A DNA stretch of 64,000 nucleotides from a virus. Below are positions 9,738 through 63,914 of the stretch, piece by piece. The DNA lies in the IMG/VR virus record IMGVR_UViG_3300009514_000016, positions 1 through 64,000 of that record. The stretch is one strand, 5' to 3'. The stretch's first letter is position 1, and each line of letters starts with the position of its first letter. The notes below the pieces were generated by a model. That model was not told the DNA's origin, made no database searches, and saw only the letters and a program-made list of their open reading frames with translations. The position numbers and the translations under genes were made by a program.

Positions 9738-9965
9738 ATGTCTCATCATTGCGTGAGAAATATTGTGTCAGAAATATATTACAATTTTGATCATAAAGAA
9801 GAATTGAAAATACAGCTGGTTCCATATGATCAAGATGCTTTTTGCAAAAAATATTCTAAAGAATTAGAGCCTACACTAAAAATGATGCGAGAAAACAAAA
9901 TTCGCAAAGAAGAAGAGAGACTTCGCAATATAGAAGAGAACAGATACTCAGGACTGGAAATATAA
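9738..9965 (+). CDS. Small protein with C-terminal YxxLEI tag
   Basis: A 75-residue charged helical protein (ELEPTLKMMRENKIRKEEER) ending RYSGLEI. The start ATG directly abuts TATAAT at 9732-9737 and has no Shine-Dalgarno sequence, so the start is not fully certain. Its TAA overlaps the ATG of the next gene (TAATG). Function unknown. Confidence 0.6.
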   Translation: MSHHCVRNIVSEIYYNFDHKEELKIQLVPYDQDAFCKKYSKELEPTLKMMRENKIRKEEERLRNIEENRYSGLEI

Positions 9966-10135
9966 TGGAAAACATTGAAGAATTATTCGCAGCAGCATTT
10001 AGGGATGCTCCTCACGAAAGTAAACATAATTTAGCTAAAGCCATGAACAAATGTCTGAAATGTTTATATCCTAGTGTTATTTTTCCTAAAATAGATGATG
10101 ATAAACAATCTGCAAAAATAGAAGGTAGCGAATAG
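9965..10135 (+). CDS. Small 56-residue protein with CxxC
   Basis: The ORF MENIEELFAAAFRDAP... overlaps the previous stop by one base (TAATG), a classic translational-coupling arrangement, and contains KCLKCLYP. It ends with TAG at 10133-10135. No family recognised. Confidence 0.6.
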   Translation: MENIEELFAAAFRDAPHESKHNLAKAMNKCLKCLYPSVIFPKIDDDKQSAKIEGSE

Positions 10136-10161
10136 AAAATAAAGAATCTAGAAAAAATCAC

Positions 10162-10189
10162 TTGATGTTTTTGTGATGCGGTGTATAAT
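10162..10189 (+). promoter_or_regulatory. Sigma70-type promoter for leader and tRNA region
   Basis: -35 TTGATG at 10162-10167, a 16-bp spacer, and a perfect -10 TATAAT at 10184-10189. Expected start near 10196. It is the best-matched promoter in the window and stands just upstream of the leader ORF, terminator and tRNA genes. Confidence 0.75.
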
Positions 10190-10239
10190 AACCCCGAGCC
10201 AAAAGCGGCAAGAAATATAAAACTTTAGAAAGAACAAAA

Positions 10240-10305
10240 ATGAAAACTATTACAATCGTGAAAAAGATGGTCATGATTAAAGGTGGAGTCCCGAGACTGC
10301 GCTAA
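10240..10305 (+). CDS. Possible 21-residue leader peptide
   Basis: ATG at 10240, TAA at 10303, encoding MKTITIVKKMVMIKGGVPRL followed by Arg. It lies between a strong promoter and a Rho-independent terminator, the layout of an attenuator leader. The Shine-Dalgarno match is weak (AGAA about 8 nt upstream), so coding is uncertain. Confidence 0.4.
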   Translation: MKTITIVKKMVMIKGGVPRLR

Positions 10306-10326
10306 TAGTTCTCATTTGCTTGAACT

Positions 10327-10367
10327 AGAGCCGGTCCTGGGAAACCAAGATCGGCTCTTTTCTTTTT
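10327..10367 (+). terminator. Rho-independent terminator ahead of the tRNA genes
   Basis: Stem AGAGCCG/CGGCTCT around a loop of about 18 nt, followed by TTTCTTTTT. It falls between the promoter at 10162 and the first tRNA-like gene at 10370. A transcript from that promoter would end here as a small RNA of about 170 nt, or read through into the tRNAs. Confidence 0.75.
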
Positions 10368-10369
10368 AT

Positions 10370-10449
10370 GGGCGTATATCCGCTCTGCTTTACACGCAGT
10401 CGAAACGGTAATTGGTTACATAGGGGTTCGATCCCCTTTACGCCTACCA
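10370..10449 (+). tRNA. tRNA-Val(UAC)-like gene with abnormal D region
   Basis: An 80-nt element with a full 7-bp acceptor stem (GGGCGTA/TACGCCT, one G-U), encoded CCA and a normal T arm (AGGGG-TTCGATC-CCCTT). The only anticodon-like arm is CTGC-TTTACAC-GCAG (anticodon TAC, 10391-10393), but it begins just 9 nt after the acceptor stem, leaving no room for a D arm. A D-loop-like piece (GGTAATTGGTTACA) sits after it instead. It may be a degenerate, rearranged or D-armless tRNA. Confidence 0.5.
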
Positions 10450-10455
10450 AATAAT

Positions 10456-10531
10456 GATCGGGTAGTTCAGTTGGAAGAACGCAATGCTGACATCATTGAG
10501 GCCGCAGGTTCAAGTCCTGCCTCGATCACCA
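10456..10531 (+). tRNA. tRNA-Val(GAC)
   Basis: Canonical cloverleaf, 76 nt with encoded CCA: acceptor GATCGGG/CTCGATC, D arm GTTC-AGTTGGAA-GAAC, anticodon arm CAATG-CTGACAT-CATTG (anticodon GAC), T arm GCAGG-TTCAAGT-CCTGC. Confidence 0.93.
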
Positions 10532-10614
10532 ATAATCTGAGACGAACGCGAATTGGTTATCTACGATTAATAGGAAAACCCCAATTTGCAATAAACTTGT
10601 TCAGATTAATTATT

Positions 10615-10692
10615 GGCTGCGTAACTCAATTTGGTCAGAGTAGCACTTTCATACGGTGCAAGTTGTAGGTTCGAATCCTACCGCAGCTACCA
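10615..10692 (+). tRNA. tRNA with CAU anticodon (elongator Met, or Ile2)
   Basis: Cloverleaf of 78 nt with CCA: acceptor GGCTGCG/CGCAGCT, D arm ACTC...GAGT, anticodon arm GCACT-TTCATAC-GGTGC, T arm GTAGG-TTCGAAT-CCTAC. The first acceptor pair is G-U, not the C-A mismatch of an initiator. CAU could be Met, or Ile read after lysidine modification; the sequence alone does not settle which. Confidence 0.9.
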
Positions 10693-10733
10693 AAGGTCAG
10701 ATTTTCTAGAAATAGAAAATTACCAAATATTTT

Positions 10734-10810
10734 GGGTCTGTGGTGTAACGGTTAACACACTATTCTGATAAAATAGAGACAGCTTGGTTCAATTCCAGCC
10801 AGACCTACCA
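10734..10810 (+). tRNA. tRNA-Ile(GAU)
   Basis: 77 nt with CCA: acceptor GGGTCTG/CAGACCT, D arm GTGT-AACGGTTA-ACAC, anticodon arm CTATT-CTGATAA-AATAG (anticodon GAT), T loop TTCAATT. The T stem has one mismatch and one G-U pair, so it is slightly weak. Confidence 0.87.
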
Positions 10811-10819
10811 GTAAAATAT

Positions 10820-10897
10820 AGGACGATAGCTAAATTGGCACAGCATTCGGCTCTTAACCGAAAGATTATCTGGGTTCAAATCCCAGTCGTCCTACCA
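10820..10897 (+). tRNA. tRNA-Lys(CUU)
   Basis: 78 nt with CCA: acceptor AGGACGA/TCGTCCT, short D arm GCT...AGC, anticodon arm TTCGG-CTCTTAA-CCGAA (anticodon CTT), T arm CTGGG-TTCAAAT-CCCAG. Confidence 0.9.
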
Positions 10898-10905
10898 AAC
10901 AATTT

Positions 10906-10993: not shown

Positions 10994-10995
10994 AT

Positions 10996-11027: not shown

Positions 11028-11058
11028 ATTTAAGCATTAAAGAAATAATTTAACTATG

Positions 11059-11839: not shown

Positions 11840-11895
11840 GAGACAATAATAGGTGATGAACACAGGCATATTGTTTTGCGCTGGAATTTATTCCT

Positions 11896-12405
11896 TTAAA
11901 TTTCAAGCCATTTATAGTTGTCCATTTTGAAGTCTGGATCAACTATTGATCTTATTTCAAAGTAATGGTCTTCATCGTATGTCGCCCTAACGTTCCCATC
12001 TATGATTGCCATGATGTGTCCCAAGTTGACTCCCATGAAAACTGATGAAGCTTGAAATCTTATGACTCCACCTCTGAAAACTGCATAGGAAACATCTAAT
12101 CCTTTTCCGTCAGGGAGCGCAGCAATATTGTGATAGTAGATATCATCATCTTTTGTTAAAGTGCGATCTTTCTCATTCGAGTTTATGATCTCGATGAAGT
12201 AGATTTGTTTCCATTGGAAGCAGTACACTTCTTTGTTTTTTGTGAAAACAATTTCTTCCGGGCCGCTTCGTTTAATCTTAACATTTCTTAAAGTAAGATT
12301 GGCTTTTAAAAACACATCGCAATCAGCGCCAGTATACATGTATGTTTTTGGATCGCAATAGATTGACGTAACTGGATAGAGCCTATATTTTCGATATAAT
12401 TTCAT
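11896..12405 (-). CDS. Hypothetical protein with C-terminal YxxLEI tag
   Basis: A 169-residue protein of mixed alpha/beta character, no recognised family. It starts MKLYRKYRLYPVTSIYCDP and ends NYKWLEI. A TATAAT box at 12431-12436 (minus strand) lies about 25 nt before the ATG, with TTGCCT a possible -35, so it may have its own promoter, back to back with the plus-strand gene at 12502. No same-strand gene follows within 170 bp, so the C-terminal peptide is not dictated by a downstream ribosome-binding site. Confidence 0.65.
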   Translation of the reverse strand: MKLYRKYRLYPVTSIYCDPKTYMYTGADCDVFLKANLTLRNVKIKRSGPEEIVFTKNKEVYCFQWKQIYFIEIINSNEKDRTLTKDDDIYYHNIAALPDGKGLDVSYAVFRGGVIRFQASSVFMGVNLGHIMAIIDGNVRATYDEDHYFEIRSIVDPDFKMDNYKWLEI

Positions 12406-12501: not shown

Positions 12502-13161
12502 ATGGCGTATCTAATTGCTAACCTTCCACCTGTTCAGTGCTTTATTAAAAAAGAGTATCTGTATGACCTAGAGAAAGGTCATGGAGAATTGACTCCTTGC
12601 ATATGGGTGACAGTGAAATCGATAAAAGGCAGAGCTTTATATATTGAGTCATTGATCCCCGAGTATGGAGCGCTATATGATAAGCTTCCTTTGAGTGCTT
12701 ATGTGTGGAAAGCAGACTTCAATGAAGAAGAGCACTACTTATTAGACTTTTTAGAGATTTGGGATGCATTCTCTTATAATATATCTGTTTTAGAAAAAGC
12801 ATCGCTAAAAGGCTTGAGATGCAAAGTATTTATGAAGAATAAACAATGGGCGCATGGAACTTATATGTTTACCATAGATTCGTGTCATAGTGAACCGAAT
12901 GAATTGAATACTTCATTATCTGAAACTCCTAACGAGCATAAATCATTCAACATAATTAAACTGGATAATGGCCAGTTCGCAGCGCAGCCAAACAATAGGA
13001 TTATATGGTTTGAACAGAGTTTAATTCCTATTGAAGTTAAAACTCCAGATTTTAAAGTATCCACCAAAGAATATTCAGTAGAAATATCGGAGAAATGGTC
13101 TGCTGGAAGTCAGAATAAATATTTCTATGAAATAGAAGAAGGCAATAAATCAGAAGATTAG
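12502..13161 (+). CDS. Conserved phage-type hypothetical protein
   Basis: A 219-residue protein beginning MAYLIANLPPVQCFIKKEYL, with AAGGAG 10 nt before the ATG. The N-terminal 100 residues (EYLYDLEKGHGE, EYGALYDKLP) resemble, from memory, a conserved protein of unknown function in many tailed phages; I cannot confirm this here. Its TAG overlaps the stop of the convergent gene 13158-13565 by 4 bp. Confidence 0.75.
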   Translation: MAYLIANLPPVQCFIKKEYLYDLEKGHGELTPCIWVTVKSIKGRALYIESLIPEYGALYDKLPLSAYVWKADFNEEEHYLLDFLEIWDAFSYNISVLEKASLKGLRCKVFMKNKQWAHGTYMFTIDSCHSEPNELNTSLSETPNEHKSFNIIKLDNGQFAAQPNNRIIWFEQSLIPIEVKTPDFKVSTKEYSVEISEKWSAGSQNKYFYEIEEGNKSED

Positions 13162-13565
13162 ATTTCCAAATTTTCATAGAATGATTTATTTTCTCTGATA
13201 ATAGTTTCCCCGTGGAATTCTTTTATCGCGGTCAATAATTCTTTTTTATTCAATTTTTCTGATTTGGGGATATGTCCTCGTTTTAGATCTGGATCAAATC
13301 TCCACAATAGCTCGTTTGGAAGTATATTAAATCCGATTTTTGTTTTGTCAAACAAATTGAGCATAACAAGATATATCACTGCATGTGAAGTATTGTTTTC
13401 AATAATCTTACCTTCAAATTCAACAGATGATGGGTTATTGCCGCCAAGCATAGTTGTTTTTAGAATAATCCAATCTTCGTTGTCCCATCTGATAACGTCA
13501 TTTTTAATCAAAAAGACAGCAGAAACCCCAGTATATCCCTTGTCGTTAAAAAAATGATGTGCCAT
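13158..13565 (-). CDS. Hypothetical protein with C-terminal YxxLEI tag
   Basis: A 135-residue protein with several predicted beta strands (DVIRWDNEDWIILKT) and a basic C-terminal third, ending FYENLEI. It starts within one base of the stop of the upstream gene (TAATG) and ends tail to tail with the plus-strand gene 12502-13161, sharing 4 bp. Function unknown. Confidence 0.65.
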   Translation of the reverse strand: MAHHFFNDKGYTGVSAVFLIKNDVIRWDNEDWIILKTTMLGGNNPSSVEFEGKIIENNTSHAVIYLVMLNLFDKTKIGFNILPNELLWRFDPDLKRGHIPKSEKLNKKELLTAIKEFHGETIIRENKSFYENLEI

Positions 13566-14134
13566 TATATTTCAACCATTCTATATCTCGGATCATCTAT
13601 TCCATTGTCAAAATCTGCTTTAAATCTTGGCCGGAAAACAATTATCGGATCATTGAAAGAACACTGCATTTTAATCTCTTTGTCTTTGAAAGACTCAGAA
13701 GCGAACTGAGTCCCTTTAACATGAAGGTAGACATCATTGTATTTTTTGCCAACTAATAGTTTCTGAACTTCAACTATGAATTGGCCTTCATGTTTAACGA
13801 TGATATCTTCGCGCTCTAGTAATCCACATTTAGTTTGGACAATATCGCAGTGCATTAAGCAGTGTCTTAAGTTTTCATCATTAAATGCGCAGATGCTCTC
13901 GTTGGGATAATTAAAGAAACTAGCTCCGTCCTGCGTGGCATCATTAAAAGCTTGAGTTTCTATTTTGTTTTCTCCATTCTCTGATGATTGGAATCCCCTT
14001 ATACTAACAACGGAATAGAATTTACAATCATAGTAAATCTTATCGCTAACAAGCAGATCTTTGAATTTAATGTTTCTGAATCCAATGGCGTATGCTTTAT
14101 CTCTTAGATCTTTGTCTTCTTCTATGTGACTCAT
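13565..14134 (-). CDS. Hypothetical protein with C-terminal YxxVEI tag
   Basis: A 189-residue protein starting MSHIEEDKDLRDKAYAIGF. I chose the ATG at 14134, 2 nt after the upstream stop, over a longer reading that would overlap most of the upstream gene with an Arg-rich, unlikely sequence. Two mostly-beta halves (KIYYDCKFYSVVSIRGF; KHEGQFIVEVQKL), ending RYRMVEI. The stop codon overlaps the next start (TAATG). Function unknown. Confidence 0.65.
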   Translation of the reverse strand: MSHIEEDKDLRDKAYAIGFRNIKFKDLLVSDKIYYDCKFYSVVSIRGFQSSENGENKIETQAFNDATQDGASFFNYPNESICAFNDENLRHCLMHCDIVQTKCGLLEREDIIVKHEGQFIVEVQKLLVGKKYNDVYLHVKGTQFASESFKDKEIKMQCSFNDPIIVFRPRFKADFDNGIDDPRYRMVEI

Positions 14135-14136
14135 TT

Positions 14137-14388
14137 TTATGTTGGCCACAATACTACGGCTGGAATCCCGTCTTCTGCAACATCTTCTTCTGAATAGCCC
14201 TGTTTCTCTAGTTCTGGAGTTAATTTTTCCAACCCGAGGTATCCACTGCATCCATCTTCAATATAAGCGGAATAACTAAACTCATAGAGCGGAGAAAAAT
14301 CATTTCCCTCTGGATCTCCTGACATAACGATAATTCTGTCTTTGTTTTCTACTGCTTGCAGTGCTTCAATCAATTCTTTCACAGTCAT
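14137..14388 (-). CDS. Small conserved phage protein (MTVKELIEAL family)
   Basis: An 83-residue acidic protein: MTVKELIEALQAVENKDRI, then SGDPEGNDFSPL, ending GIPAVVLWPT. This layout, an N-terminal helix and then a small beta domain with DPEGN, is a widespread small phage/bacterial family without known function (from memory). GGAG precedes the ATG and a TATAAT box lies at 14415-14420, about 26 nt further upstream, so it may start a transcript. Confidence 0.75.
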   Translation of the reverse strand: MTVKELIEALQAVENKDRIIVMSGDPEGNDFSPLYEFSYSAYIEDGCSGYLGLEKLTPELEKQGYSEEDVAEDGIPAVVLWPT

Positions 14389-14427: not shown

Positions 14428-14781
14428 CTATATTTCAATAAAATCATAAAATGTTTTGTCATTTTGATGTGTTTTGATTTTTTCTGCGCCTTTGCTTAAG
14501 ACTTTATATGAATAATCTTTAACGCAGTTTGTGCTTCTAACTTCTTTATCTAGTGGATCTTCTTTGAAATAAATTTCGTACCATCCCTTTTCATCGGCAA
14601 GTTGATCCCGATTAACCACTTGAGTGACAATTCCCATATAAGATATGCTATTGAATGGAGGTGGAGGAATGTAGAATATATCTCCAGGGCACAGATCTAT
14701 AACCTCAGTTTCTTTCCAGTATTCTCCAGGAAGCAAATCATCTAAATTAACAGGGATTCTTGGTGTGTCTGCAAACATCAT
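14428..14781 (-). CDS. Small beta-barrel-like protein, paralogue of the upstream gene
   Basis: A 117-residue protein whose body (LCPGDIFYIPPPP, YMGIVTQVVNRDQL, KGWYEIYF) and ending (NDKTFYDFIEI) match the C-terminal half of the upstream protein (VGEIIFIPADP, LITGHVGQIIQIE, NGWQKIHF, SDKTFYDFLEI). A tandem duplication is the simplest reading. The fold suggests a small SH3/KOW-like barrel. The ATG overlaps the upstream stop (ATGATG; 14781 or 14778). Carries the C-terminal tag. Confidence 0.65.
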   Translation of the reverse strand: MMFADTPRIPVNLDDLLPGEYWKETEVIDLCPGDIFYIPPPPFNSISYMGIVTQVVNRDQLADEKGWYEIYFKEDPLDKEVRSTNCVKDYSYKVLSKGAEKIKTHQNDKTFYDFIEI

Positions 14782-15485
14782 ATCTCCAAAAAATCATAAA
14801 ATGTTTTGTCACTCTTTTTAGGAAGTGGAACATCTTTTTCCCGCAAAATTTCGACAATATAGTCCATTGCGCAACTCCATGCTCGATGTTTGCCAGTGGA
14901 ATCAATAAAATGAATCTTTTGCCATCCATTATGCTCATCTGATGGTATTGGATGTTTCTCGATTTGGATAATCTGCCCCACATGACCTGTGATTAATCCA
15001 AAATCATCACTCGGATCAGCCGGAATAAATATTATTTCTCCAACATTAATATCATAAGCAGCGGTTATTTGCCAACACTGATGATCCTCAATGCTGCCGT
15101 GGGATTTGGGAATTAAATTAGTCCATACAGTCGCTGATTTCTTTTCATCTTCTTCATCGGAACTCACTTCTGTGCCAAAAATTGCCTGATCAAACGTTGG
15201 AATGTCAAAGAATTTTTTGCCATTTATTCCAAGCCCCGATAAAGCGCCTTCAAAGATGTTTGGAGTGATTTTTGGTTTTCCCGATCCGCTATAAATTTGA
15301 AGTCCTGGCCAGAAATAAGGAATTGTAAATGTGCTGGCGAGATTTGATTCGCTATCAACCTTGAAATGAATTGTGGCTTGCTTTTCAGAGAGATCAATGT
15401 CAATGACTAGACCCATGAAAGTCCCGTTCACCCCAATTAGGTCGCCAATTTTGATTTGCTTAACTTCAACATTGACCCAGTTCAT
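14778..15485 (-). CDS. Two-domain small beta-barrel-like protein with LEI tag
   Basis: A 235-residue protein with two similar units: an N-terminal barrel (VKQIKIGDLIGVNGTFMGLV) and a C-terminal barrel (INVGEIIFIPADP...GQIIQIE) joined by an acidic linker. The C-terminal unit is duplicated as the next gene. It ends KTFYDFLEI. A related layout (PTIGDKVRLKKR...GIIHSID) occurs in 60773-61213. Starts 4 nt after the upstream stop. Function unknown. Confidence 0.65.
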   Translation of the reverse strand: MNWVNVEVKQIKIGDLIGVNGTFMGLVIDIDLSEKQATIHFKVDSESNLASTFTIPYFWPGLQIYSGSGKPKITPNIFEGALSGLGINGKKFFDIPTFDQAIFGTEVSSDEEDEKKSATVWTNLIPKSHGSIEDHQCWQITAAYDINVGEIIFIPADPSDDFGLITGHVGQIIQIEKHPIPSDEHNGWQKIHFIDSTGKHRAWSCAMDYIVEILREKDVPLPKKSDKTFYDFLEI

Positions 15486-16008: not shown

Positions 16009-16275
16009 CTAGATTTCTAGTGCGCCATAAGGATCAGTTCTGTAATCGGATTCTAACTCGTCCATAAAAACACTCAGGCAATGTCCATAATCTTCTTCCC
16101 AATGATATATTTTGTCGTGATACGACTTATGAGTCAGCCCTTCAATGCTTTCTCTAATAAATATTAGAGACGCCATTTGCTCTGAATTTGGAGTCGTCAT
16201 GAATCGAACAAATCCGCCAGTTAGCATATCGCGAGTGTAACCATGATTGGTCCAGATCAAATATGATAAAGTCAT
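16009..16275 (-). CDS. Small hypothetical protein with C-terminal YxxLEI tag
   Basis: An 88-residue protein (MTLSYLIWTNHGYTRDML...) ending DPYGALEI. I chose the ATG at 16275; a TTG 21 bp upstream is the alternative. No clear Shine-Dalgarno sequence. The hairpin and T-run that may end the tnpB transcript lie just before it. Function unknown. Confidence 0.55.
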   Translation of the reverse strand: MTLSYLIWTNHGYTRDMLTGGFVRFMTTPNSEQMASLIFIRESIEGLTHKSYHDKIYHWEEDYGHCLSVFMDELESDYRTDPYGALEI

Positions 16276-16285
16276 GGTTATAAAA

Positions 16286-16311
16286 AACAGGGACAATCAG
16301 GAACACTGATT
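16286..16311 (-). terminator. Hairpin with T-run just downstream of tnpB
   Basis: On the minus strand, AATCAG-TGTTC-CTGATT followed by GTCCCTGTTTTTT. It lies 12 nt past the tnpB stop, so it could be a terminator, or the right-end hairpin or guide-RNA scaffold of an IS200/IS605-type element. Confidence 0.55.
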
Positions 16312-19564: not shown

Positions 19565-20542
19565 ATGAATAACTGGTATCTCAAATTCATCAAACTGGCG
19601 CAAGAAGAAAAGTCTCCAACATGGCAAGATGAATTCGCTGATATTAAAGATCGTTTCAGCGTCGCTCACGATATGATGGCAGAAAAAGGCCACCAAACCT
19701 TTCAAGACCCCATGGTCACTGATCTTACAAATATTGATTATATATCAGAACAATTCTTAAATCAACACACTAGCGAAATTTTAGACAAAATAGAAACACT
19801 AAAAAGAAGTTACCAAAACCAAACAAATATCAATGATGAACCACAAGAAATGCCAGATGCTTGGATTGGACCCTATCACGAAGAAGAAATAACATATCCA
19901 GAAGCCAGAGGAAGATTAATGTTTAATTTGCCGCTAATGAATTACAACATAAGCATCAATATGGATATGTATATTGACGAACACCCATCAACATTTGCTT
20001 GGAATCCTAATAATTCATATTTTTCACTTGCAGCAGATTTCACTTCAGAACCAGTTTTATCTAAGAAAGCATTCGAAGGAGAACGCGGAGGAAGCTCAAT
20101 AGTTCATATCCCATACACCTTAGCTAATGAAAAATATATAAAGCCATACCTGAAAAATCTAATAAATGGATCAGTTCATAGCTACATCAATCGAAATAGC
20201 AACGCACTTCAAGATATGCTCCAATCAAAAGCACCTGATCAACATATCGGAAACCTAAATAAAAACAACCAAATGCTAATGAATATAGCATGGAAATTCA
20301 ATGAAGCAAATACTAATAATTGCACTCCAGAAATTCTAGATGGACAATTAGATGGATTGCAACTGGCCGCAGAAATATGCGAACACCCATATATCAGAAA
20401 AATCTACAATGACCACATCAATCCTGACGATAGGCGAGAATCTATCTATGTTAGCAGCCTGTGGTCTCTCCCATATTCTGTTTTTGTGCATTTAGTTCAC
20501 TGGATGGAAGAATTTATCAATAAGAATTCTGGGCCATCCTAA
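19565..20542 (+). CDS. Hypothetical protein with NWYxxFxKLAQ N-terminal motif
   Basis: A 325-residue protein beginning MNNWYLKFIKLAQEEK. It shares a short segment pattern with the first gene of the trio (DPMVTDL versus DPVVENS about 30 residues after the motif), suggesting distant paralogy. Mostly helical, with a beta-rich middle (NYNISINMDMYIDEHP). Its TAA overlaps the stop of the convergent gene 20539-21087 by 4 bp. Function unknown. Confidence 0.7.
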   Translation: MNNWYLKFIKLAQEEKSPTWQDEFADIKDRFSVAHDMMAEKGHQTFQDPMVTDLTNIDYISEQFLNQHTSEILDKIETLKRSYQNQTNINDEPQEMPDAWIGPYHEEEITYPEARGRLMFNLPLMNYNISINMDMYIDEHPSTFAWNPNNSYFSLAADFTSEPVLSKKAFEGERGGSSIVHIPYTLANEKYIKPYLKNLINGSVHSYINRNSNALQDMLQSKAPDQHIGNLNKNNQMLMNIAWKFNEANTNNCTPEILDGQLDGLQLAAEICEHPYIRKIYNDHINPDDRRESIYVSSLWSLPYSVFVHLVHWMEEFINKNSGPS

Positions 20543-21087
20543 ATCTCTAATTGTTCATACCTGTCAACATCTTCAATAAAAGACTCAATTAACTCAACCT
20601 CAATTAGATTTGTACTACACATGTCTTCTGCGACGCTTGCGTCCATTGATGCTAGTTTTTCTTCTTTGCTTTTTGATTTATGTTTTACACAAGTTCCATA
20701 TTTATCGTGAGGCAAAGTAGTGTTATTTGGTAAGAAACACACATTTTTGCAAAACCAAAAATATTCGACAATTGGCCAAGGTCGGTATTCTTCTTTTTGT
20801 TCTGATTTAGAAAGTATATATGTGAATCTCACAAAACTAATAAAACCAATCAAGCATATTATTGCGCCGCTAATGGAAATTATAGAATAATTTCCCGATG
20901 TTAACATGCAAGATATGATACCTATAGTAAAAAAGGTTAATACTACATAAAAACCCTCGAATTCCCCCTGAGGTGTTGTTTTATCAACAGAGTTTTTGAT
21001 TCTATAATATATTATTATAGGAATTGTCACCGGAAGTAACATTATTCTCACCCAAAAACATAGAAAATCCAATATTATTCTCATCAT
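20539..21087 (-). CDS. Membrane protein with C-terminal YxxLEI tag
   Basis: A 182-residue protein with three hydrophobic segments (about 5-27, 45-62 and 68-88: RIILDFLCFWVRIMLLPVT, VVLTFFTIGIISCML, SISGAIICLIGFISF). The soluble C-terminal half has four cysteines, is acidic at the end and finishes RYEQLEI. It starts at the stop codon of the upstream gene (TGATG). Probably sits in the host inner membrane with the tag in the cytoplasm (inference). Confidence 0.7.
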   Translation of the reverse strand: MMRIILDFLCFWVRIMLLPVTIPIIIYYRIKNSVDKTTPQGEFEGFYVVLTFFTIGIISCMLTSGNYSIISISGAIICLIGFISFVRFTYILSKSEQKEEYRPWPIVEYFWFCKNVCFLPNNTTLPHDKYGTCVKHKSKSKEEKLASMDASVAEDMCSTNLIEVELIESFIEDVDRYEQLEI

Positions 21088-21563
21088 ATCTCTAAATTCC
21101 CATAAGTTGTTGGTTTGAATTCTTTGATTTCTATTTCTTTGCTTTTAATGTCATTGTTTATTTGCTCATCAATTGTTGCATCTTGACAAAAATTGAAATT
21201 GTTTTTCTCAAGAATTTTAAAAACATCGTCATATTTAGCTCTAATAATTACATTTTTATCAGTCAAAATAGCCAAATATTTGAAACCCAAAACATTTGAG
21301 GAATAAATTTTATTTATAGTTGCTTTATATTTACAGTTTATAGCGCCATCATCATTGCTAATATACCTATCAAAAATATTGCTTATTTCGCTGGCTTCAA
21401 TTTTAGCAAGCTTCATGTTTTCATCGTAAAAATAATATCTTAAAATGTCAATATGAATAACGTCGGATGGACCCAATTCATGAGCATAAAACGCTTCTGA
21501 AATAATCTGGACAGTCTTATGTGGAAGACTCCTATACGCACAGCGATACACTTGATTTGTCAT
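21084..21563 (-). CDS. Hypothetical protein with C-terminal YxxLEI tag
   Basis: A 159-residue alpha/beta protein starting MTNQVYRCAYRSLPHK and ending TTYGNLEI. GAGGAA six nt before the ATG supports the start. The stop TGA overlaps the next gene's ATG, so it is translationally coupled to the membrane protein. Function unknown. Confidence 0.65.
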   Translation of the reverse strand: MTNQVYRCAYRSLPHKTVQIISEAFYAHELGPSDVIHIDILRYYFYDENMKLAKIEASEISNIFDRYISNDDGAINCKYKATINKIYSSNVLGFKYLAILTDKNVIIRAKYDDVFKILEKNNFNFCQDATIDEQINNDIKSKEIEIKEFKPTTYGNLEI

Positions 21564-21965: not shown

Positions 21966-22634
21966 CTATATTTCTAAAACTCCATACATGCCATTTGCAA
22001 GTTTTCTACTTATTATGGTCAAAAATCCTTTTTTATGATCTATAAAATTATCTTTATTATAATAAGGAATGCACAGGCGTCGCTCGCTATCGTCTAAGTC
22101 ATTTTTTATGCTAAGTCTTTTACCAATGTCATAGCCAGACAGCGAATTCTGCAACTCAAGCCACATACGTTTACATTTAAAATAAAGACCTATATACTCT
22201 TTCATTAGTTTGGTCCCATTAAAATTAAATACATATATTAGATCCCCTCCCAAGATATTGTCATGTATATATGTTATTTTATTGTGTGGTTTGATCTCTT
22301 TTAGCGAATTTTTATTGTCCTCATGGCTTAGTGCTATATGGCATTTAGCTATTATTTTGCTTACATCGGTAGACGAATAAGTAAAGTTGCAATGTTGTTC
22401 TTTCATGCAGTATTCAGTAAAATAACTTTTTATCACATATGGAACAGCGTACGTCAGAATGTCCTTTTTTATCGCCTTATAGGGAATTGCGTTTTCTAAT
22501 TTTATTTGACCGCTCTGATCGAATTTGATGTCATCATATTGGTTTTCGTTGAAAAATTCTTGTATCATAGAATGAGTATTGCGTGGCAGTAATTCGTTAA
22601 ATTTGCTAGTATATTGTTGCACAATGCCGCTCAT
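21966..22634 (-). CDS. Hypothetical protein with C-terminal YxxLEI tag
   Basis: A 222-residue protein (MSGIVQQYTSKFNELLPRNT...) ending GMYGVLEI. AGGAGA precedes the ATG by 5 nt. Its layout (an N-terminal helix with ELLPRNTHSMIQEFF, then alpha/beta) resembles the 159-residue neighbour (RSLPHKTVQIISEAFY), so the two may be distant paralogues. Function unknown. Confidence 0.65.
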   Translation of the reverse strand: MSGIVQQYTSKFNELLPRNTHSMIQEFFNENQYDDIKFDQSGQIKLENAIPYKAIKKDILTYAVPYVIKSYFTEYCMKEQHCNFTYSSTDVSKIIAKCHIALSHEDNKNSLKEIKPHNKITYIHDNILGGDLIYVFNFNGTKLMKEYIGLYFKCKRMWLELQNSLSGYDIGKRLSIKNDLDDSERRLCIPYYNKDNFIDHKKGFLTIISRKLANGMYGVLEI

Positions 22635-25595: not shown

Positions 25596-26459
25596 TTAGG
25601 AACCAGATGTCACGCTGACTTTTGCCAGAGCATAGTCATTGATGATTACTATGCCCACTTCTTCATAAATTATCCAGCCAAGGCGAAGCTCTTTAGGGTT
25701 ATCTGCTGGTAGAACGGTGATGTCCTGGCGAACCGGGAAGGCACCGACGTATTCGGCTGGAGCGAGCAGGAATACTTCGTCGGTTCTCATACGAGAAGAG
25801 ACGTGAATATCTGCTGTCCAGAGGTGTCCGAATAAACCAGAGGTTAGAACCTCTCTCTGGGTTGCTTCATCGTAAACGGTTTTTCCGAAGTTACGAACGT
25901 CAGCATAGCGTGAAGCATGCATAACGATCTTAGCAACGGTTAGGTCGTGTTGCTCGATGAAAGCGAAAGCGCTGTTTAGGGCGGCTAGGGTTAGAGCGCC
26001 ACCAGTTGTGGTGACAGTGTGATCAGCAAGAATGGAGCTTCTGATTGCGGCGAAGATGTTTGTATCTTCTTCCTTTTGAATAGCTTCTTTTGCTTTGATC
26101 TGAGCGCGGTCTACAATGTAGAATCTACGAGCTTTGATCTCGGAAATTCTGATTTGTGGGTTGACAGCGATCTCGAAAGTTGGGACAAGGATTTCCTCGC
26201 CCTCGGTGATTTCGTCTGGCACAGCGCCTCTACGGGAGATGACGTGAGCGACTGAACGAACGTCTTTTTCGTAGCGAGCTAGGGCTCCTTGTGGTAGTTC
26301 GTCAACCATGAGAAGTTTACGACCTACAGCCTGATACTCAAGTGCTCTACGAATTGGTTCAACCATTGCCTGGGCAAGGGCTACACGTCCTTCGTCTGTT
26401 TCAAGAGCTTGAGCGATAAGAGCTTCGCGTTCTGCTACTGCTGATTTATCTAAAGCCAT
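25596..26459 (-). CDS. Major capsid protein, HK97-like
   Basis: A 287-residue protein starting MALDKSAVAEREALIAQ. It has an N-terminal helical arm, a long helix (EPIRRALEYQAVGRKLLM), an E-loop-like beta region, and C-terminal strands with RLGWIIYEEVGIVIIND, typical of HK97-fold capsid proteins of large phages. Pairing with a decoration-like protein just upstream, and with portal and terminase in the same block, supports the call. AAGGA lies 10 nt before the ATG and a strong terminator follows. The short length suggests that any N-terminal scaffold domain is lacking. Confidence 0.8.
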   Translation of the reverse strand: MALDKSAVAEREALIAQALETDEGRVALAQAMVEPIRRALEYQAVGRKLLMVDELPQGALARYEKDVRSVAHVISRRGAVPDEITEGEEILVPTFEIAVNPQIRISEIKARRFYIVDRAQIKAKEAIQKEEDTNIFAAIRSSILADHTVTTTGGALTLAALNSAFAFIEQHDLTVAKIVMHASRYADVRNFGKTVYDEATQREVLTSGLFGHLWTADIHVSSRMRTDEVFLLAPAEYVGAFPVRQDITVLPADNPKELRLGWIIYEEVGIVIINDYALAKVSVTSGS

Positions 26460-51776: not shown

Positions 51777-52520
51777 CTATATTTCTAGAAGCATGTCCTT
51801 GGGACCGTCCTCCTCGACAACCAAGAAATCGTCAAAAGCTTTAATGGCTTCATTTGTTTCCGGTTTCTTTGGAGCTAGATCCATGACGGTAACTTCCTCT
51901 CCTTTTGTGTTAGATGATTTGATTTTCTTTGGCTTTTCTTCAGAAGAGTCTTTTATTTCAAAAGGAACCTCTTCTTTTTTCTCTGCTTTTTTAGATGGTC
52001 TGCCACGTTTCTTCGCAGTTTTCTTTGTTGCAGTCTTTTGTGCAGTCTTCTTCTTCGCAGGCTTTGCGCTTCTCTTTTCAAGAATTTCTAGTTCTTCTGC
52101 TGATAACTCTGGCTCAACAGTCTTAAACTCTTCTTTGTCAACCTTGATAAGAAATTTTGCTTTTTCCGCTCCTAAGAAATCAGGCGCAAAAGAATGTTTC
52201 TTAGGCACTGTCAAGAATTTATCTTCTTTAGAAACTCTATAAGTAGCTCTTTTGTCGCCTTCCAGATATTGCAGGGCCATATGTCCTGATGGAAGATGAA
52301 CTGAATAACGAACTGTTTCATTATCATCATATTCTTCTTCTTCTGGATGAATTTCAACTTTCCCAATTAGTTCAAGAACCTTGTGAGAAATCGCATTCTG
52401 CACTTCTGCGGTCTGGAAGTGAACATCGTCAATGTCCACGATTGAATTGTACGGGACTAACGCTCTGGCGCACTCCAACGAAACTGCGGTTTTTCTTGGG
52501 TTTATGTTTTTCAATTTCAT
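51777..52520 (-). CDS. Lysine-rich AT-hook (H1-like) protein with C-terminal LLEI
   Basis: A 247-residue protein. Residues 1-135 look like two small beta domains (LVPYNSIVDIDDVHF; ETVRYSVHLPSG). Residues 150-182 are a Lys/Ala/Thr-rich basic stretch like histone H1 tails (PAKKKTAQKTATKKTAKKRG) ending in the AT-hook core RGRP (172-175). The acidic tail ends DMLLEI. GGAG precedes the ATG; its stop abuts the SET gene's ATG (TAGATG), so both are made from one message. DNA binding and packaging is a reasonable inference. Confidence 0.7.
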   Translation of the reverse strand: MKLKNINPRKTAVSLECARALVPYNSIVDIDDVHFQTAEVQNAISHKVLELIGKVEIHPEEEEYDDNETVRYSVHLPSGHMALQYLEGDKRATYRVSKEDKFLTVPKKHSFAPDFLGAEKAKFLIKVDKEEFKTVEPELSAEELEILEKRSAKPAKKKTAQKTATKKTAKKRGRPSKKAEKKEEVPFEIKDSSEEKPKKIKSSNTKGEEVTVMDLAPKKPETNEAIKAFDDFLVVEEDGPKDMLLEI

Positions 52521-57247: not shown

Positions 57248-58873
57248 TTAGAATGGAATTCCTGGAATGCCGCTCAACATTTCCCCGCCTGCTTTTGGAT
57301 TTTCCTCAACCAACATGACTTGGCTTGTTAGAAGCAATCCGGCAATGCTCGCAGCAGTTTCTAAAGCAGTTGTTGTAACTTTAGCTGGGTCAATGATTCC
57401 GCTCTCAACAACGTCTCCATACTCTCCACTCGCAGCATCATAGCCATATTCATACTTGTTTTCTCTGAGAACATTTTGGACAACAACCTCCCCATTTGCT
57501 CCAGCATTCTCAGCAATTTTCATAATAGGAGCAGCAAGAGCTTCATAGACTATCTGAATTCCTCTTGCGAAATCTCCCTTATGTTCTTTGGCAAAGTCTG
57601 TTAGAACTTCTCTTGATCTTAGCAAAGCGATCCCACCTCCAGGGAGAACTCCAGTTTCAATTGCAGCTCTGGTTGCGTGTAGAGCATCCTCGATTCTGGC
57701 TTTCTTTTCTTTCATCTCTACTTCAGTGGCAGCGCCAACATTAATCTGAGCAATTCCGCCAGCAAGTCTAGCTAGACGCTCTTGCAATTTCTCAGTTTCA
57801 TATTCACTCTTTGAAGCAGCGATATGTGATTTGATTTGCTCAATTGCCTCGTCAATCTTTTCATCCTCGCCATAGCCATTGGTAATAGTTGTTGAATGTT
57901 TGGTTATGACGATTTTCCCGCAACGTCCCATATCTTCAATTTTGAAGTCTCTAGCTTTCTTGCCTGAGTCTTTTAGGAGTGCTTTTCCGCCAGTGGCAAC
58001 AGCAATATCTTCAATAAGGTTTCTCTGGGTGTCACCAACACCGGGGACTTTGACGCAGCAAGCACTCATTCTGCCTTGCAGCTTATTGGTCAAAATGGTT
58101 GTCAAGAATATTTCAGAGAAATCTGGAGCAATGAGAACAACTGATTCGCCTTCATTGGCGCATGCTTGAAGCACTCCAGTTAAATCTCTGATGTTCACAT
58201 TTTTGTCATCTGTCAAAAACAGGCGAGCATTGTGGAAAACACATGTCTGCTTATCTTTTTCTGTTGCGAATGCCTGACTGACCCATCCTTTATCAAATTG
58301 CATACCAGCAATTAGGTCGATATAAGTTTCATTGGTTTTGCCCTCTTCAACTGTGACAACGCCATCTGTCCCAACCTTCTCCATTGCATCAGCGATAATT
58401 TCGCCGATATAGGTATCGTTGTTGGATGCGATTGAGGCAACTTGAGTTACTTCATTTTTGCTGTCAATTTGCTTAACTTTGGCCTTCAAGTCTGCCATAA
58501 CTTTATCGACCGCAGCGTGAATCCCGTTCTTTAGAGTGACTGGGTTAGCGCCAGCAGAAACTGCTTTTCTTCCGCTTTGATAAATTGCTCTTCCAAGAAC
58601 AGTAGAAGTTGTGGTTCCATCTCCAGCGACTTCAGCAGCTTTGACAGCAACTTCTTTTAGCATTCTTGCGCCAAGATTCACAAATTCATCTGATACTTCA
58701 AATTCTTTTGCTACAGTAACGCCGTCTTTGGTGACTATTGGAGAACCGCCTAGTTTTCCAATGATAACATGTCTTCCTTTTGGCCCAAGAGTAGATCCAA
58801 CTGCATCGGCAATTTGATTTACGCCTTGCTCAATAGCATCCTGAGCATACTCAAAGTATATGACTTTTTTCAT
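57248..58873 (-). CDS. groL: Phage-encoded GroEL chaperonin
   Basis: A 541-residue, full-length group I chaperonin subunit. Family landmarks: TLGPKGRHVIIGK with the nucleotide-binding Gly-Pro, KDGVTVAKE, AGDGTTTSTVL (catalytic Asp region), and the C-terminal ATPase segment GVLPGGGIALLRS. The tail ends GGEMLSGIPGIPF in place of the usual Gly-Gly-Met repeats. It folds newly made proteins in an ATP-driven cage with GroES. GGAG precedes the ATG, and a TATAAT box lies 30 nt upstream. Several large phages carry their own GroEL, apparently for virion proteins. Confidence 0.96.
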   Translation of the reverse strand: MKKVIYFEYAQDAIEQGVNQIADAVGSTLGPKGRHVIIGKLGGSPIVTKDGVTVAKEFEVSDEFVNLGARMLKEVAVKAAEVAGDGTTTSTVLGRAIYQSGRKAVSAGANPVTLKNGIHAAVDKVMADLKAKVKQIDSKNEVTQVASIASNNDTYIGEIIADAMEKVGTDGVVTVEEGKTNETYIDLIAGMQFDKGWVSQAFATEKDKQTCVFHNARLFLTDDKNVNIRDLTGVLQACANEGESVVLIAPDFSEIFLTTILTNKLQGRMSACCVKVPGVGDTQRNLIEDIAVATGGKALLKDSGKKARDFKIEDMGRCGKIVITKHSTTITNGYGEDEKIDEAIEQIKSHIAASKSEYETEKLQERLARLAGGIAQINVGAATEVEMKEKKARIEDALHATRAAIETGVLPGGGIALLRSREVLTDFAKEHKGDFARGIQIVYEALAAPIMKIAENAGANGEVVVQNVLRENKYEYGYDAASGEYGDVVESGIIDPAKVTTTALETAASIAGLLLTSQVMLVEENPKAGGEMLSGIPGIPF

Positions 58874-60097: not shown

Positions 60098-60433
60098 TTA
60101 TATCTCTATGTTTGTAAATCTGTCTTCTGAACCACCAGTTTTAGGAGTGTTTTTGCCCTTAACAAATGTATCAGCGATTTTTGTAGCCAAAAATTTGTCT
60201 ATGCATCTAGGCCCGTGAAAAGGAACGTCATATATATGTTCTTTTTTCTTATCTGGCTCAGCGGCTGGTCGGTAGATCTTTAATCTGCAATACATAGTTC
60301 CTGTTCGGATCTCTTTATTGCATCCGGGGCATGTGTAGTCTTTGGACGCAGGAAATCTGGAATCTCTTATTAGTAAATACTCTCCTAAAGATTTTCGAAT
60401 TAGGGGATTCCAATCTGTGTCCTTATTAGCCAT
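60098..60433 (-). CDS. Zinc-binding protein with C-terminal FxxIEI tag
   Basis: A 111-residue protein with CPGC at 35-38 and FHGPRC at 72-77 (His73, Cys77), a likely CCHC zinc site of the type in PARP-finger-like phage proteins (FPASKDYTCPGCNKEIRTG). It ends RFTNIEI. The stop adjoins the next ATG (TAAATG). Function unknown. Confidence 0.65.
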   Translation of the reverse strand: MANKDTDWNPLIRKSLGEYLLIRDSRFPASKDYTCPGCNKEIRTGTMYCRLKIYRPAAEPDKKKEHIYDVPFHGPRCIDKFLATKIADTFVKGKNTPKTGGSEDRFTNIEI

Positions 60434-60434: not shown

Positions 60435-60776
60435 TCACTGCCTTTTGATTTTAGATATTTCTAACACTAGATATCTCAAATACATTGGAATTAGGAATAT
60501 CGCAGCAATAGGAAAGAAATAGGCCGACACTCCAAACAACGCTGACATTGAGATGAAAATAGCTGCATTAAAACCAAATTCAAGTTTTGTATGCTCTTTT
60601 CCCTCTTTTGATTTATCAGAAAGTTCTTGAATCTTGTCTAAAATCTTCTCTGAAGCGGCTGTCATAGATTCTGCTAGTTGTTGGCCTTGTTTGTCTTTTG
60701 CGGATTTCGCATTTTTAAGTGTATCAATAAAATCATTATATTCTTGGCCGTAATTGTTTTTATTTTCTTCTGTCAT
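60435..60776 (-). CDS. Small membrane protein with coiled N-terminal half
   Basis: A 113-residue protein from the ATG at 60776, which overlaps the upstream stop (ATGA); a longer reading adds only six residues. Residues 1-65 are charged and helical (AESMTAASEKILDKIQEL), then two hydrophobic segments (FNAAIFISMSALFGVSAYFF and IAAIFLIPMYLRYLVL) form a membrane hairpin. It resembles the tail-anchored layout of 62104-62475. Function unknown. Confidence 0.6.
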   Translation of the reverse strand: MTEENKNNYGQEYNDFIDTLKNAKSAKDKQGQQLAESMTAASEKILDKIQELSDKSKEGKEHTKLEFGFNAAIFISMSALFGVSAYFFPIAAIFLIPMYLRYLVLEISKIKRQ

Positions 60777-61213
60777 ATTTCCAACCCAACCCATCTGTCA
60801 GTGTGGTCCCACATTTTTTTGTTCTCTTCATGAAGATATTCGACACTGATATCTTTGTAGACGCAAATCTCTCCAGCGTGAGGCCCCTCAATAAATTCAA
60901 TATTAAATGAAGTGCCAGTGTAGTAGTCTACGTCAATTGAATGTATTATACCAACGGATTGTTCCGGGTCAAATCGTTTCTTAAGTCTTACTTTATCGCC
61001 TATTGTTGGCATCCATTCCATATTGCACGATCCGATGATTTCATATTGTCTAGGATTTAAGACGGCCCGATATCCGGGTTTACCGCTAATGAATGAGACA
61101 AGAACAAATAGGCCAGTCTCGCGCTCTTGCACGCTAAGAATTCTGGCGACACAATTGTGAAGTTGGTGATTTTCGGCCAAACACCGAATCACTTTATCTT
61201 TTTCCGGTTTCAT
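60773..61213 (-). CDS. Small beta-barrel protein with C-terminal WxxLEI tag
   Basis: A 146-residue protein with two barrel-like halves: NCVARILSVQERETGLFVLV and PTIGDKVRLKKRF...GIIHSIDVDYYTG, similar in layout to the paralogues at 14428-15485. It ends RWVGLEI. TATAAT at 61219-61224 ends 5 nt before the ATG and there is no Shine-Dalgarno sequence, so translation may be leaderless. The stop overlaps the next ATG (ATGA). Confidence 0.62.
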   Translation of the reverse strand: MKPEKDKVIRCLAENHQLHNCVARILSVQERETGLFVLVSFISGKPGYRAVLNPRQYEIIGSCNMEWMPTIGDKVRLKKRFDPEQSVGIIHSIDVDYYTGTSFNIEFIEGPHAGEICVYKDISVEYLHEENKKMWDHTDRWVGLEI

Positions 61214-61218
61214 GCGCT

Positions 61219-61230: not shown

Positions 61231-62046
61231 TTAGGAATATATTCTGAGAAGAATATCCTTGATTCTATCGTATCCGAGAGTCTTTTTCAAACCCAGCATG
61301 GCAGTGCTAATGGCAAATGCCCAACGATAATCGTTGTCTTTAATCGAGTCTTTATCAACCTGTTTTGGCTCAACAGTTAATTTGCCAACCAATTTATCAT
61401 AGTAGTCAATATTGTCATAAACCTTATTGAGATTGGCTCTTTCAATATATGATCTCCAAAGATCATTCATATCTTCAGCTATTTTTTTGAACTCTTCGGC
61501 TTTTCCAGTTTCTAAAATATCAGTAACTCTGTGGTGAGTCTCATTATAGCGGTGAGTGTAATTCCTGTCGTGAACTCTGTTCTTGAGAGTCTTTTTCCAT
61601 TGTCCAAATTCTTTCATCATTTTTCTATTGCGAGCATCGAGCATAACTTCTGCTTCTAATTTTTTAAGCATTTCAGGAGAATAGTCTAGCATGACGTTTT
61701 GAGGGTTTTTATAAACGCGATACTCAGCGTCAAAAGCTTCAACAACTCTTTTTTTATTCCATGAGCCAGATTTCGCAATACTGCCATCAAACTTTTTATT
61801 GTTAATGCTGTTTTTGATATCGCGCGGATAAATATGGGTGTCAGCTAACATTGTAATGGTTGATGGAATATCCATGTCTATGTTGGCCATTTTTTTGATG
61901 AGAAATCGGTAATCAACCCCAAATAGGTTCTGGGCGATTTCATCTGAATCTTCAGCGTGCTGCATAATGAATGCAAATTTCTCTGATCCAAGAATGGTGT
62001 GCAGATCGTTTACTAGGTTTCTAATTTCTCTTGAATATGGTTCCAT
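61231..62046 (-). CDS. Hypothetical helical protein
   Basis: A 271-residue protein from the ATG at 62046 (MEPYSREIRNLVNDLHTILG); an upstream TTG would add two residues. Almost entirely helical and charged, with a His/Arg-rich centre (RVHDRNYTHRYNETHHRV). No recognised family. Its last codons form an inverted repeat (AGGATATTCT...AGAATATATTCCT). Confidence 0.6.
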   Translation of the reverse strand: MEPYSREIRNLVNDLHTILGSEKFAFIMQHAEDSDEIAQNLFGVDYRFLIKKMANIDMDIPSTITMLADTHIYPRDIKNSINNKKFDGSIAKSGSWNKKRVVEAFDAEYRVYKNPQNVMLDYSPEMLKKLEAEVMLDARNRKMMKEFGQWKKTLKNRVHDRNYTHRYNETHHRVTDILETGKAEEFKKIAEDMNDLWRSYIERANLNKVYDNIDYYDKLVGKLTVEPKQVDKDSIKDNDYRWAFAISTAMLGLKKTLGYDRIKDILLRIYS

Positions 62047-62103
62047 TGACAATTTCTCTTTGCAAAAGATATATTGACAATTACAATATCTTGAGGAAGA
62101 TTC

Positions 62104-62475
62104 CTATAGGAAATTTGCCGAAAAGAAAATTATCCCAGCGATAGACATGAGCGCAAGCCCTATCCATAATGCTCCAATGGACAGTTTATTCTCTGCTTCT
62201 GTCTCCGTTTGCGCTTCTGATTTTGTATTCAATTTGTCCAGAACCTCCAAAATCAGTTCATTATTAGCGTAGCATATATTAATAATGTCTCCTGTTTCCT
62301 GATAGATGGTGTTGAATGATTTTTCTACTCCTTTAACAAGCTGCTCAAAATAAGCTGCTGCTTCCATGCTCCGAGCTGTTATTTCTTGATTCTGAGCAGC
62401 CTGAGCACATTCCTGGCACAATTCGCTCTCATTCAGCTCTCCTAGTTCATTGCAGTTATTACATTCTCCGAACAT
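62104..62475 (-). CDS. Zinc-ribbon protein with C-terminal membrane anchor
   Basis: A 123-residue protein from the ATG at 62475, with AAGGAG seven nt upstream; longer readings lack this. CNNC at 5-8 and CQEC at 20-23 form an N-terminal zinc ribbon, followed by a helical stretch and one hydrophobic segment at the end (SIGALWIGLALMSIAGIIFF). Probably tail-anchored in the host membrane. Function unknown. Confidence 0.65.
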   Translation of the reverse strand: MFGECNNCNELGELNESELCQECAQAAQNQEITARSMEAAAYFEQLVKGVEKSFNTIYQETGDIINICYANNELILEVLDKLNTKSEAQTETEAENKLSIGALWIGLALMSIAGIIFFSANFL

Positions 62476-62503
62476 ATTCAACTCCTTATGAGATTCAACC
62501 GCT

Positions 62504-62509
62504 ATTATA
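62504..62509 (-). promoter_or_regulatory. -10 box for the minus-strand gene at 62475
   Basis: TATAAT on the minus strand; TTGGCC lies 16 nt upstream as a possible -35. Part of the divergent region 62476-62594, which also carries the plus-strand box at 62566. Confidence 0.5.
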
Positions 62510-62565
62510 TGAATAAAGTGTTGATGGCCAATGATTTTTAAATTTTCCTCTTTTCCGACACCGAG

Positions 62566-62571
62566 TATAAT
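62566..62571 (+). promoter_or_regulatory. -10 box for the plus-strand gene at 62595
   Basis: GAGTATAAT, 23 nt before the ATG at 62595. No convincing -35 (TTTTCC 17 nt upstream). Confidence 0.4.
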
Positions 62572-62594
62572 ACCAAAGATTGAAAGGAATGACA

Positions 62595-63914
62595 ATGAAT
62601 TGGGAAAACATCACAGAATTTATTGTTCCAGCCATGACGACTGGAATAGCCCCGCGCCCAAATATCAAAAACATCAAAACTGAAAATCTTTTTCAGTACA
62701 CAATCAAGTCATATCTCGAATGGACAGATAAAAACAGTCTGACCATTGTTGCTAAAAACGCAATCCCTGGTGATAACATACATCTCTCTGGCTGGAATTT
62801 ATCGGCAAAAACCTTAGATTTAGACGTTAAGTCTATGACTTTCAAAGAAAAATTGTCAACTTTTCTTCTTCCAGTCAAAAGTTACCCGCCAAATACTTAT
62901 GACTCATTTGCCACAACTAAAAATGGCAAAATATTTAATATATCCAATTACCCATATCAAGACCCATACTACAAAACACAAACCAAATCTGATTACCACG
63001 ACTACCGACTGCACATACTGAATAATGATGATAAAACTGGATATGCCGGGGAATATAATATTCTGACTCAAGAACATCCGATGTCAGTAAATATCCCCAT
63101 TAAAGACCAAATATTTGATCACATAAATGAGAGAAATCCATATCCATTCATGAGCACTAGTAATAACAAAGAAAAAACGCTGATAAGCAATGAGAAATTA
63201 GGATTATTCACTGTCTATGATGAAAACCTTAACTACTGTTTATTTGTTGTTCAAGCAAAAGGAGCTAATGCTGCCATCCTGTCCCCGAATGGATGTCAAA
63301 TAATTGTATTCTTGCAACATAAAAACAAGCTAAATTACAAATGCTATGACATAAATTCTGGAACATTGACCAAAACTGGTCAATTTGCCATCGGGAACAA
63401 AAGAAACAAATTTGAACTCAAACCTGAACTAATGGCAATGGACAGCAAAAGAAAGCTGATGTATCTTGGCTATCATAATAATGGAATCCCATATATTGCA
63501 GTTGCTAATTTTGCAGATGATTCAGTTGTGATCAAGCCATTGGGCGACATAAATGAAATCACTTCTATTAAACAAGATGGAGATTATATCTCTGTTGGCG
63601 GGGTTATGGTTAAAGGGATGAATTCTATTAATGCCTATGTCCCAAAGAACACCTTTTCGCTTGCTCTAAAAACAAAACCGACTCACATATGTAACTCTTT
63701 CTTTCAATATGATGATGAAGAAAAAACAATCTCTCACTGCAAGCAATACGATTTCAGCTACAAACTTAATATCGCTAAATCACAGAGCATATCAAGCAAT
63801 ATCGCTAATAATATGTTGGCTGTTATGGTTGACGATCGCATTCAAATCAAGGAATTCATCAATGAGGAGTTGAAAAACACATATGACAAGAAATACCAAG
63901 ACCTTGAAATCTAA
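62595..63914 (+). CDS. Propeller-like hypothetical protein with C-terminal YxxLEI tag
   Basis: A 439-residue protein starting MNWENITEFIVPAM at the ATG at 62595, chosen because AAGGA ends 6 nt before it. The body is beta-rich with repeated short strand pairs (FTVYDENLNYCLFVVQAKG; LMAMDSKRKLMYLGYHNNG; SLALKTKPTHICNSFF), suggestive of a beta propeller, but no family motif. It ends KKYQDLEI; the next ATG follows after one base. Function unknown. Confidence 0.65.
   Translation: MNWENITEFIVPAMTTGIAPRPNIKNIKTENLFQYTIKSYLEWTDKNSLTIVAKNAIPGDNIHLSGWNLSAKTLDLDVKSMTFKEKLSTFLLPVKSYPPNTYDSFATTKNGKIFNISNYPYQDPYYKTQTKSDYHDYRLHILNNDDKTGYAGEYNILTQEHPMSVNIPIKDQIFDHINERNPYPFMSTSNNKEKTLISNEKLGLFTVYDENLNYCLFVVQAKGANAAILSPNGCQIIVFLQHKNKLNYKCYDINSGTLTKTGQFAIGNKRNKFELKPELMAMDSKRKLMYLGYHNNGIPYIAVANFADDSVVIKPLGDINEITSIKQDGDYISVGGVMVKGMNSINAYVPKNTFSLALKTKPTHICNSFFQYDDEEKTISHCKQYDFSYKLNIAKSQSISSNIANNMLAVMVDDRIQIKEFINEELKNTYDKKYQDLEI

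Follow-up and report, generated by a model that had tools for sequence, protein, structure and literature searches.

A short C-terminal peptide shared by dissimilar proteins of a phage G-like virus, with lineage-specific versions in related phages

Introduction

Why should about one in five proteins of a phage, most of them unrelated to each other, stop at the same short peptide? The question is raised by IMG/VR virus record IMGVR_UViG_3300009514_000016 (80,185 bases; G000), where an earlier note, made from the sequence of positions 1-64000 (the window), had listed 14 open reading frames (ORFs) ending in [LIV]-E-I. The last 16 kb of the record (L003) was analyzed as a held-out part. The major capsid protein (MCP) of the window (25596-26459, minus strand) does not carry the peptide and is 55.8% identical to Bacillus phage G gp27, which identifies the virus as phage G-like; this protein, 81-84% identical to those of the closest relatives, was the anchor for finding them. 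Here we describe the peptide as a C-terminal tag shared by non-homologous proteins, of which lineage-specific versions exist, and consider what might read it.

Results

The tag ends one protein in five

Each of the 14 ORFs on the earlier list was confirmed, and all stop right after [LIV]-E-I, 13 of them with Tyr, Phe or Trp at position -6. Across the full record, with mechanical ORF calls of at least 45 amino acids, the motif [YFW]xx[LIV]E[IL] ends 21 of 99 ORFs. This includes eight of the 25 ORFs in the held-out part, whose ends are QDFAKLEI, KEYSLLEL, KRFSELEI, ETYSGLEI, DPYSMLEI, NPYSGLEI, DPYSGLEI and NPYELLEI. At internal positions of the same proteins the motif occurs once in 24,439, which sets the C-terminal expectation at 0.004 (binomial p about 1e-65); in 2000 shuffles of the 20 terminal residues, tagged ends averaged 0.044 and never exceeded 2. 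Relatives of 40-548 kb were gathered by portal and MCP searches, GroEL having been dropped as a probe because it is too widespread, and in 21 of them that lack the tag and were covered whole or in large part the motif stands at 1 of 2195 ORF ends. The scan of the full genome and its relatives against shuffled ends, which the earlier note had proposed as a check, thus finds extra copies in the rest of the genome over a background near nil.

The window members on the plus strand are a 75-residue protein at 9738-9965, ending NRYSGLEI (last six codons 9945-9962), and a 444-residue protein at 62580-63914, previously given as 62595, ending KKYQDLEI (63894-63911). The minus strand carries proteins of 169 residues at 11896-12405 (DNYKWLEI, 11899-11916), 135 residues at 13158-13565 (SFYENLEI, 13161-13178), 228 residues at 13565-14251 (PRYRMVEI, 13568-13585), 117 residues at 14428-14781 (TFYDFIEI, 14431-14448), 235 residues at 14778-15485 (TFYDFLEI, 14781-14798) and 95 residues at 16009-16296 (DPYGALEI, 16012-16029). 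Further along the same strand lie a 182-residue protein with a hydrophobic N-terminal half at 20539-21087 (DRYEQLEI, 20542-20559), followed by proteins of 159 residues at 21084-21563 (TTYGNLEI, 21087-21104) and 222 residues at 21966-22634 (GMYGVLEI, 21969-21986), a 111-residue protein with a Cys/His pattern at 60098-60433 (DRFTNIEI, 60101-60118) and a 146-residue protein at 60773-61213 (DRWVGLEI, 60776-60793).

The structural module of the window has no tagged gene among 27, versus 21 of 67 elsewhere (p=3e-4). Inside that module lies the remaining ORF of the original list, a 247-residue basic protein (51777-52520, minus strand) ending GPKDMLLEI with no aromatic residue at -6; we treat its ending as chance, and it is probably not a member. 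The end KFEDI of 5376-5738, put forward earlier as a variant, does not keep the tag spacing and was left out of the count.

Selection acts on the peptide

The codons used at -6 (TAT/TAC/TTT/TTC/TGG), -3 (eight codons) and -2 (GAA/GAG) match genome usage and all three stops are used. This ordinary usage argues for selection on the peptide, bearing out what the earlier note had suggested from varied codons and stops, and the tag is a peptide-level C-terminal signal under selection. The one biased tag codon is that of the final Ile, which is ATA in 13 of 20 cases versus 0.29 genome-wide (p=9e-4), a preference without explanation.

It is very improbable that the endings are instead a translated DNA or RNA element, such as a ribosome-binding or coupling sequence or a promoter, or a functionless duplication of gene ends. 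Several tagged genes do overlap the next start (TAATG, ATGATG), which together with the favored ATA would suit such an element, and a true example exists in LR745208.1, the record of the best terminase match. Its six [TI]PYRHExxxF ends, considered as a further code, were rejected because their near-invariant codons and many six-frame copies identify a DNA repeat. This repeat, CCCTATCGGCACGAG...TTTTTAG, stands at several gene ends (e.g. L524:2212-2499) and, translated, mimics a C-terminal tag. In the window's phage, by contrast, third codon positions are not conserved like the first and second, and the genome-like codons, the three stops and the near absence of internal matches all speak against a nucleotide element. 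The two convergent tagged genes reported earlier are also correct, 13158-13565 facing 12502-13161 (plus strand) and 20539-21087 facing 19565-20542 (plus strand); the first tag overlaps its convergent neighbor and so cannot be the ribosome-binding site of that gene. Some tags have no close downstream gene, and two tags in G003, a relative described below, precede tRNA-like sequence. A promoter reading of the tag (...ATATAAT) was set aside since the -35 box spacing misfits and all three stops occur.

Related and huge phages carry other codes in the same register

Scans of IMG/VR with the patterns DPYxxLEI and PYSGLEI found no close relative of the window's phage; the former returned two contigs with one common protein ending DPYISLEI, the remaining matches being chance, and a search for related loci with the 444-residue tagged protein had no match. 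Different endings were found in phages related through the portal protein. In G003 (78 kb) 24 proteins end in F-x-W-x-x-[MI]-x-x-stop, and the same code is on 26 proteins in 100 kb of G039, which was found by a DNA pattern scan of IMG/VR. In the 548-kb G005, of which about 340 kb was read, some 47 proteins bear [SDN]-R-F-[ED]-I-[LM]-D-[LI], and IMG/VR scans of the same kind added G037 (298 kb; 30 proteins), G038 (351 kb) and G040 as further carriers. Carriers of these alternative codes are dissimilar small proteins, and here too codons vary at the tag. The three codes are alike in having an aromatic residue at -6 and an aliphatic one at -3; an acidic -2 followed by an aliphatic -1 is common to two of them. 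The FxW code leaves -2 unconstrained, and its -1 codon mostly ends in A because many of the genes run into the next start through an ATGA overlap. In several G005 proteins the motif is followed by 1-15 further residues.

The distribution of these codes is narrow. Over all of IMG/VR the RFEILDL pattern gave 13 stretches, 12 of them from four tagged phage contigs. A search of 84,980 cellular genomes with this pattern yielded 61 DNA matches and a single ORF end, in an apparently spurious ORF between chromosomal genes; with no credible protein end among these genomes, there is no sign of host use of this form. The C-terminal tag is also absent from the closest MCP relatives (e.g. G013, G018 and G020) and from the 21 relatives covered, and phage G and Tunturi_5 have none in the parts read. 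Across 80 capsid loci of relatives only two matches appeared, a flanking tag gene in G003 and an FRFIDI end standing alone. All records are metagenomic fragments, so that the lack of a tag in a contig of 40-60 kb says little, but G013, G018 and G020 have sufficient length for it to be informative.

The tag is carried by dissimilar bodies

The proteins bearing the tag are mostly unrelated, with one paralogous pair among the 21 (14428-14781 and 14778-15485; 29% identity, E 2e-6) and one family of four HREDGPA-repeat proteins (record positions 70716, 73897, 75868 and 76332, in L003). The claim that the bodies are dissimilar, rather than sharing the ending by descent, therefore stands. No homologue of any of the 21 was found across the fetched loci (several Mb), and neither Pfam nor PHROGs matched a family among the window's tagged proteins scanned, leaving the propeller and barrel folds suggested earlier unconfirmed; a single-sequence AlphaFold2 model of 60773-61213 was uninformative (predicted local distance difference test, pLDDT, 33).

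A tagged 115-residue protein of G005 contains a complete DUF551 at residues 5-91, above the Pfam cut-off, and then 24 residues ending in the tag. Among twelve SH3-like megaphage paralogues, bodies are 35-65% identical while the tags are nearly invariant, and AlphaFold2 gives the bodies of this family a pLDDT of about 77-89 outside one loop and the tag tail 53-58. The complete DUF551 and the SH3-like bodies with their low-pLDDT tails thus indicate, by family match and model, that the tag is an appendix to folded domains.

Discussion

A candidate docking signal and the alternatives to it

The properties described above led us to ask what a short terminal peptide on so many unrelated proteins is for. 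The reading we place at even chances is that it is a C-terminal address tag, unstructured and specific to each lineage, by which accessory proteins would dock to a single hub that the phage encodes and that evolves fast. Borne by about 20 accessory proteins whose bodies are mostly unrelated and which lie outside the structural module, the tag would be recognized by one partner in the infected cell, which would gather its bearers at one place or complex; the reader's groove would probably take the aromatic side chain of -6 together with the aliphatic side chains of -3 and -1. For a partner-read signal one would expect relatives to bear different codes at this terminus, as they do. The reader would most likely be phage-encoded and fast-evolving because relatives differ in code within one register and most of those sharing the capsid lack a code altogether, whereas a host factor common to them all should have kept the code constant. 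Of the earlier proposal, a sorting, docking or degradation signal read by one partner, the peptide-level C-terminal signal stands and the lineage codes fit a partner-read one; that there is a single reader, that it comes from the phage and that docking results is what we infer.

Several points weigh against this reading. No reader or hub was identified in the tagged phages: the genes restricted to G037 and G005 were too numerous to single out a candidate, as the two phages are related, and a beta-clamp reader was rejected for lack of any DNA_pol3_beta match in the tagged phages. The putative link between the three codes lies in their common register. The overlap of many FxWxx[MI]xx tags with the next start means that nucleotide conservation there partly serves translation. 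Early expression of the tagged genes is hinted at by TATAAT-type promoters. GTATAAT boxes lie a few bases upstream of the start codons of 9738, 60773, 76332, 59223, 72897 and 69866, with none in the structural module, and their placement suggests leaderless transcripts.

Alternatively, the peptide could be a C-terminal degron that delivers a set of early proteins to an AAA+ protease, whether host ClpXP, host Lon or one of the phage's own, and shortens their life. This is unlikely, although in the window's phage the tag always stands at the very C-terminus, its last residue is hydrophobic and its carriers are accessory proteins that could be early. As with ssrA/ClpXP degrons the end is independent of the body; it differs in its aromatic-x-x-aliphatic-acid-aliphatic pattern, its restriction to lineages and the extra residues possible in G005. 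An acidic -2 and a conserved aromatic -6 are unlike ssrA-type ends. A degron also fits less well with a code that differs between related phages and with a megaphage motif that can be followed by further residues. ClpP was found in 3 of 18 records searched, all untagged (G013, G018 and G022), and in 0 of 7 tagged ones; it is also annotated in phage G. PDZ_2 was found in 0 of the 18 records, with positive controls detected in 14 of 14, a search of phage genomes that leaves host PDZ proteins outside it. With neither ClpP nor PDZ_2 in the tagged phages, and with residues allowed after the megaphage motif, the evidence leans to docking. PDZ class II ligands and sliding-clamp and SSB-tip motifs likewise present a hydrophobic-x-hydrophobic end to a groove, but the tag departs from their known consensus, and the tagged phages have no PDZ_2 or beta-clamp family match. 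A reader could be dispensed with altogether if the beta-prone tags (FEILDL, YSGLEI) bound each other and so built an assembly or condensate. The alternating hydrophobic pattern, the many small unrelated carriers and the failure to find a reader domain would agree with this, yet we consider it improbable, since self-association alone accounts neither for the confinement of the tag to the extreme C-terminus in the window's phage nor for the fixed aromatic spacing.

Phage-specific addressing has a precedent in the PIC import of proteins into the phage nucleus of Chimalliviridae, where close relatives ignore each other's cargo. That system reads a surface of its cargo, no linear N- or C-terminal signal having been found in the phages studied (PMC11087766), whereas the candidate address here is a terminal peptide and the phages are phage G-like.

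The capsid and a second, N-terminal peptide

The tag might also load proteins into the head for ejection with the DNA, in the manner of encapsulin cargo or T4 internal proteins, a possibility we regard as improbable. In its favor, encapsulin shells are built on the HK97 fold and recruit their cargo through short terminal peptides (PMC7355545), which, like the tag, are flexible and mark non-homologous cargo for one reader. Moreover, small megaphage proteins consist of the first ~30 MCP residues (the N-arm) followed by the C-terminal tag. These fusions, in G005 (G005c:8421-8639 = L148:8421-8639, minus strand; 56-71% identity with the MCP arm across about 30-34 residues) and G037 (G037:32529 = L430:12529-12756, plus strand), with a related MCP N-arm in G038 (G038:30161-30253), provide the only direct indication that the C-terminal tag may be connected with the capsid. 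Encapsulin-type loading differs in that dozens of proteins are tagged per phage here, codes vary among relatives and capsid genes do not predict the tag: a tag traveling with the shell of its own genome would be expected in G013, G018 and G020, whose MCPs are among the closest, and they lack it.

A capsid-linked role is more plausible for a second peptide, as it is more widely shared within the capsid clade than the C-terminal tag. This N-terminal sequence, MN(N)WYxKxAQ or MN(N)WYxKFxxAQ (the MNWYKKAQ type), begins 8 dissimilar proteins of this phage (record positions 17895, 18832, 19565, 54113, 66041, 74572, 78752 and 79597, those above 64000 in L003), about 19 in G002, 8 in G019 and 12 in G005. 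It occurs on other proteins, none having been seen with both peptides. The T4 capsid-targeting sequence is an N-terminal, amphipathic peptide found on several unrelated internal proteins and cut off by the prohead protease. The tag shares with it the marking of several unrelated phage proteins by one short terminal peptide but stands at the opposite end, and the MNWYKKAQ peptide resembles it more.

Returning to the address tag docked by a phage-encoded hub, a more specific version is possible, though less likely than not: in some phage G-like and huge phages the tag would be a private postal code, re-coded per lineage, by which a hypervariable phage reader gathers a changeable set of dozens of accessory proteins per phage, and the N-terminal MNWYKKAQ peptide would be an orthogonal code for another destination in these phages. 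Re-coding would perhaps bar co-infecting relatives or host factors from using the tag.

Two further observations concern neighboring genes and other phages. The window encodes a GroEL at 57248-58873 (PHROG 5725, E 1e-152). In an unrelated phage (IMGVR_UViG_3300032093_000087, L108) several neighboring proteins begin with MKKTIRLTES, another shared terminal peptide.

Implications

We found no description of general, swappable C-terminal targeting in viruses of bacteria in the open-access literature, and as far as those papers show the C-terminal tag system is previously undescribed. If the proposed reading is true, viruses of bacteria use such targeting. Huge phages encode mainly small proteins of unassigned function; if many of them share one address, its reader would place dozens at once, and in several phages whose codes differ. 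Short, portable and lineage-specific, the tags could in addition become tools to steer proteins in the course of infection.

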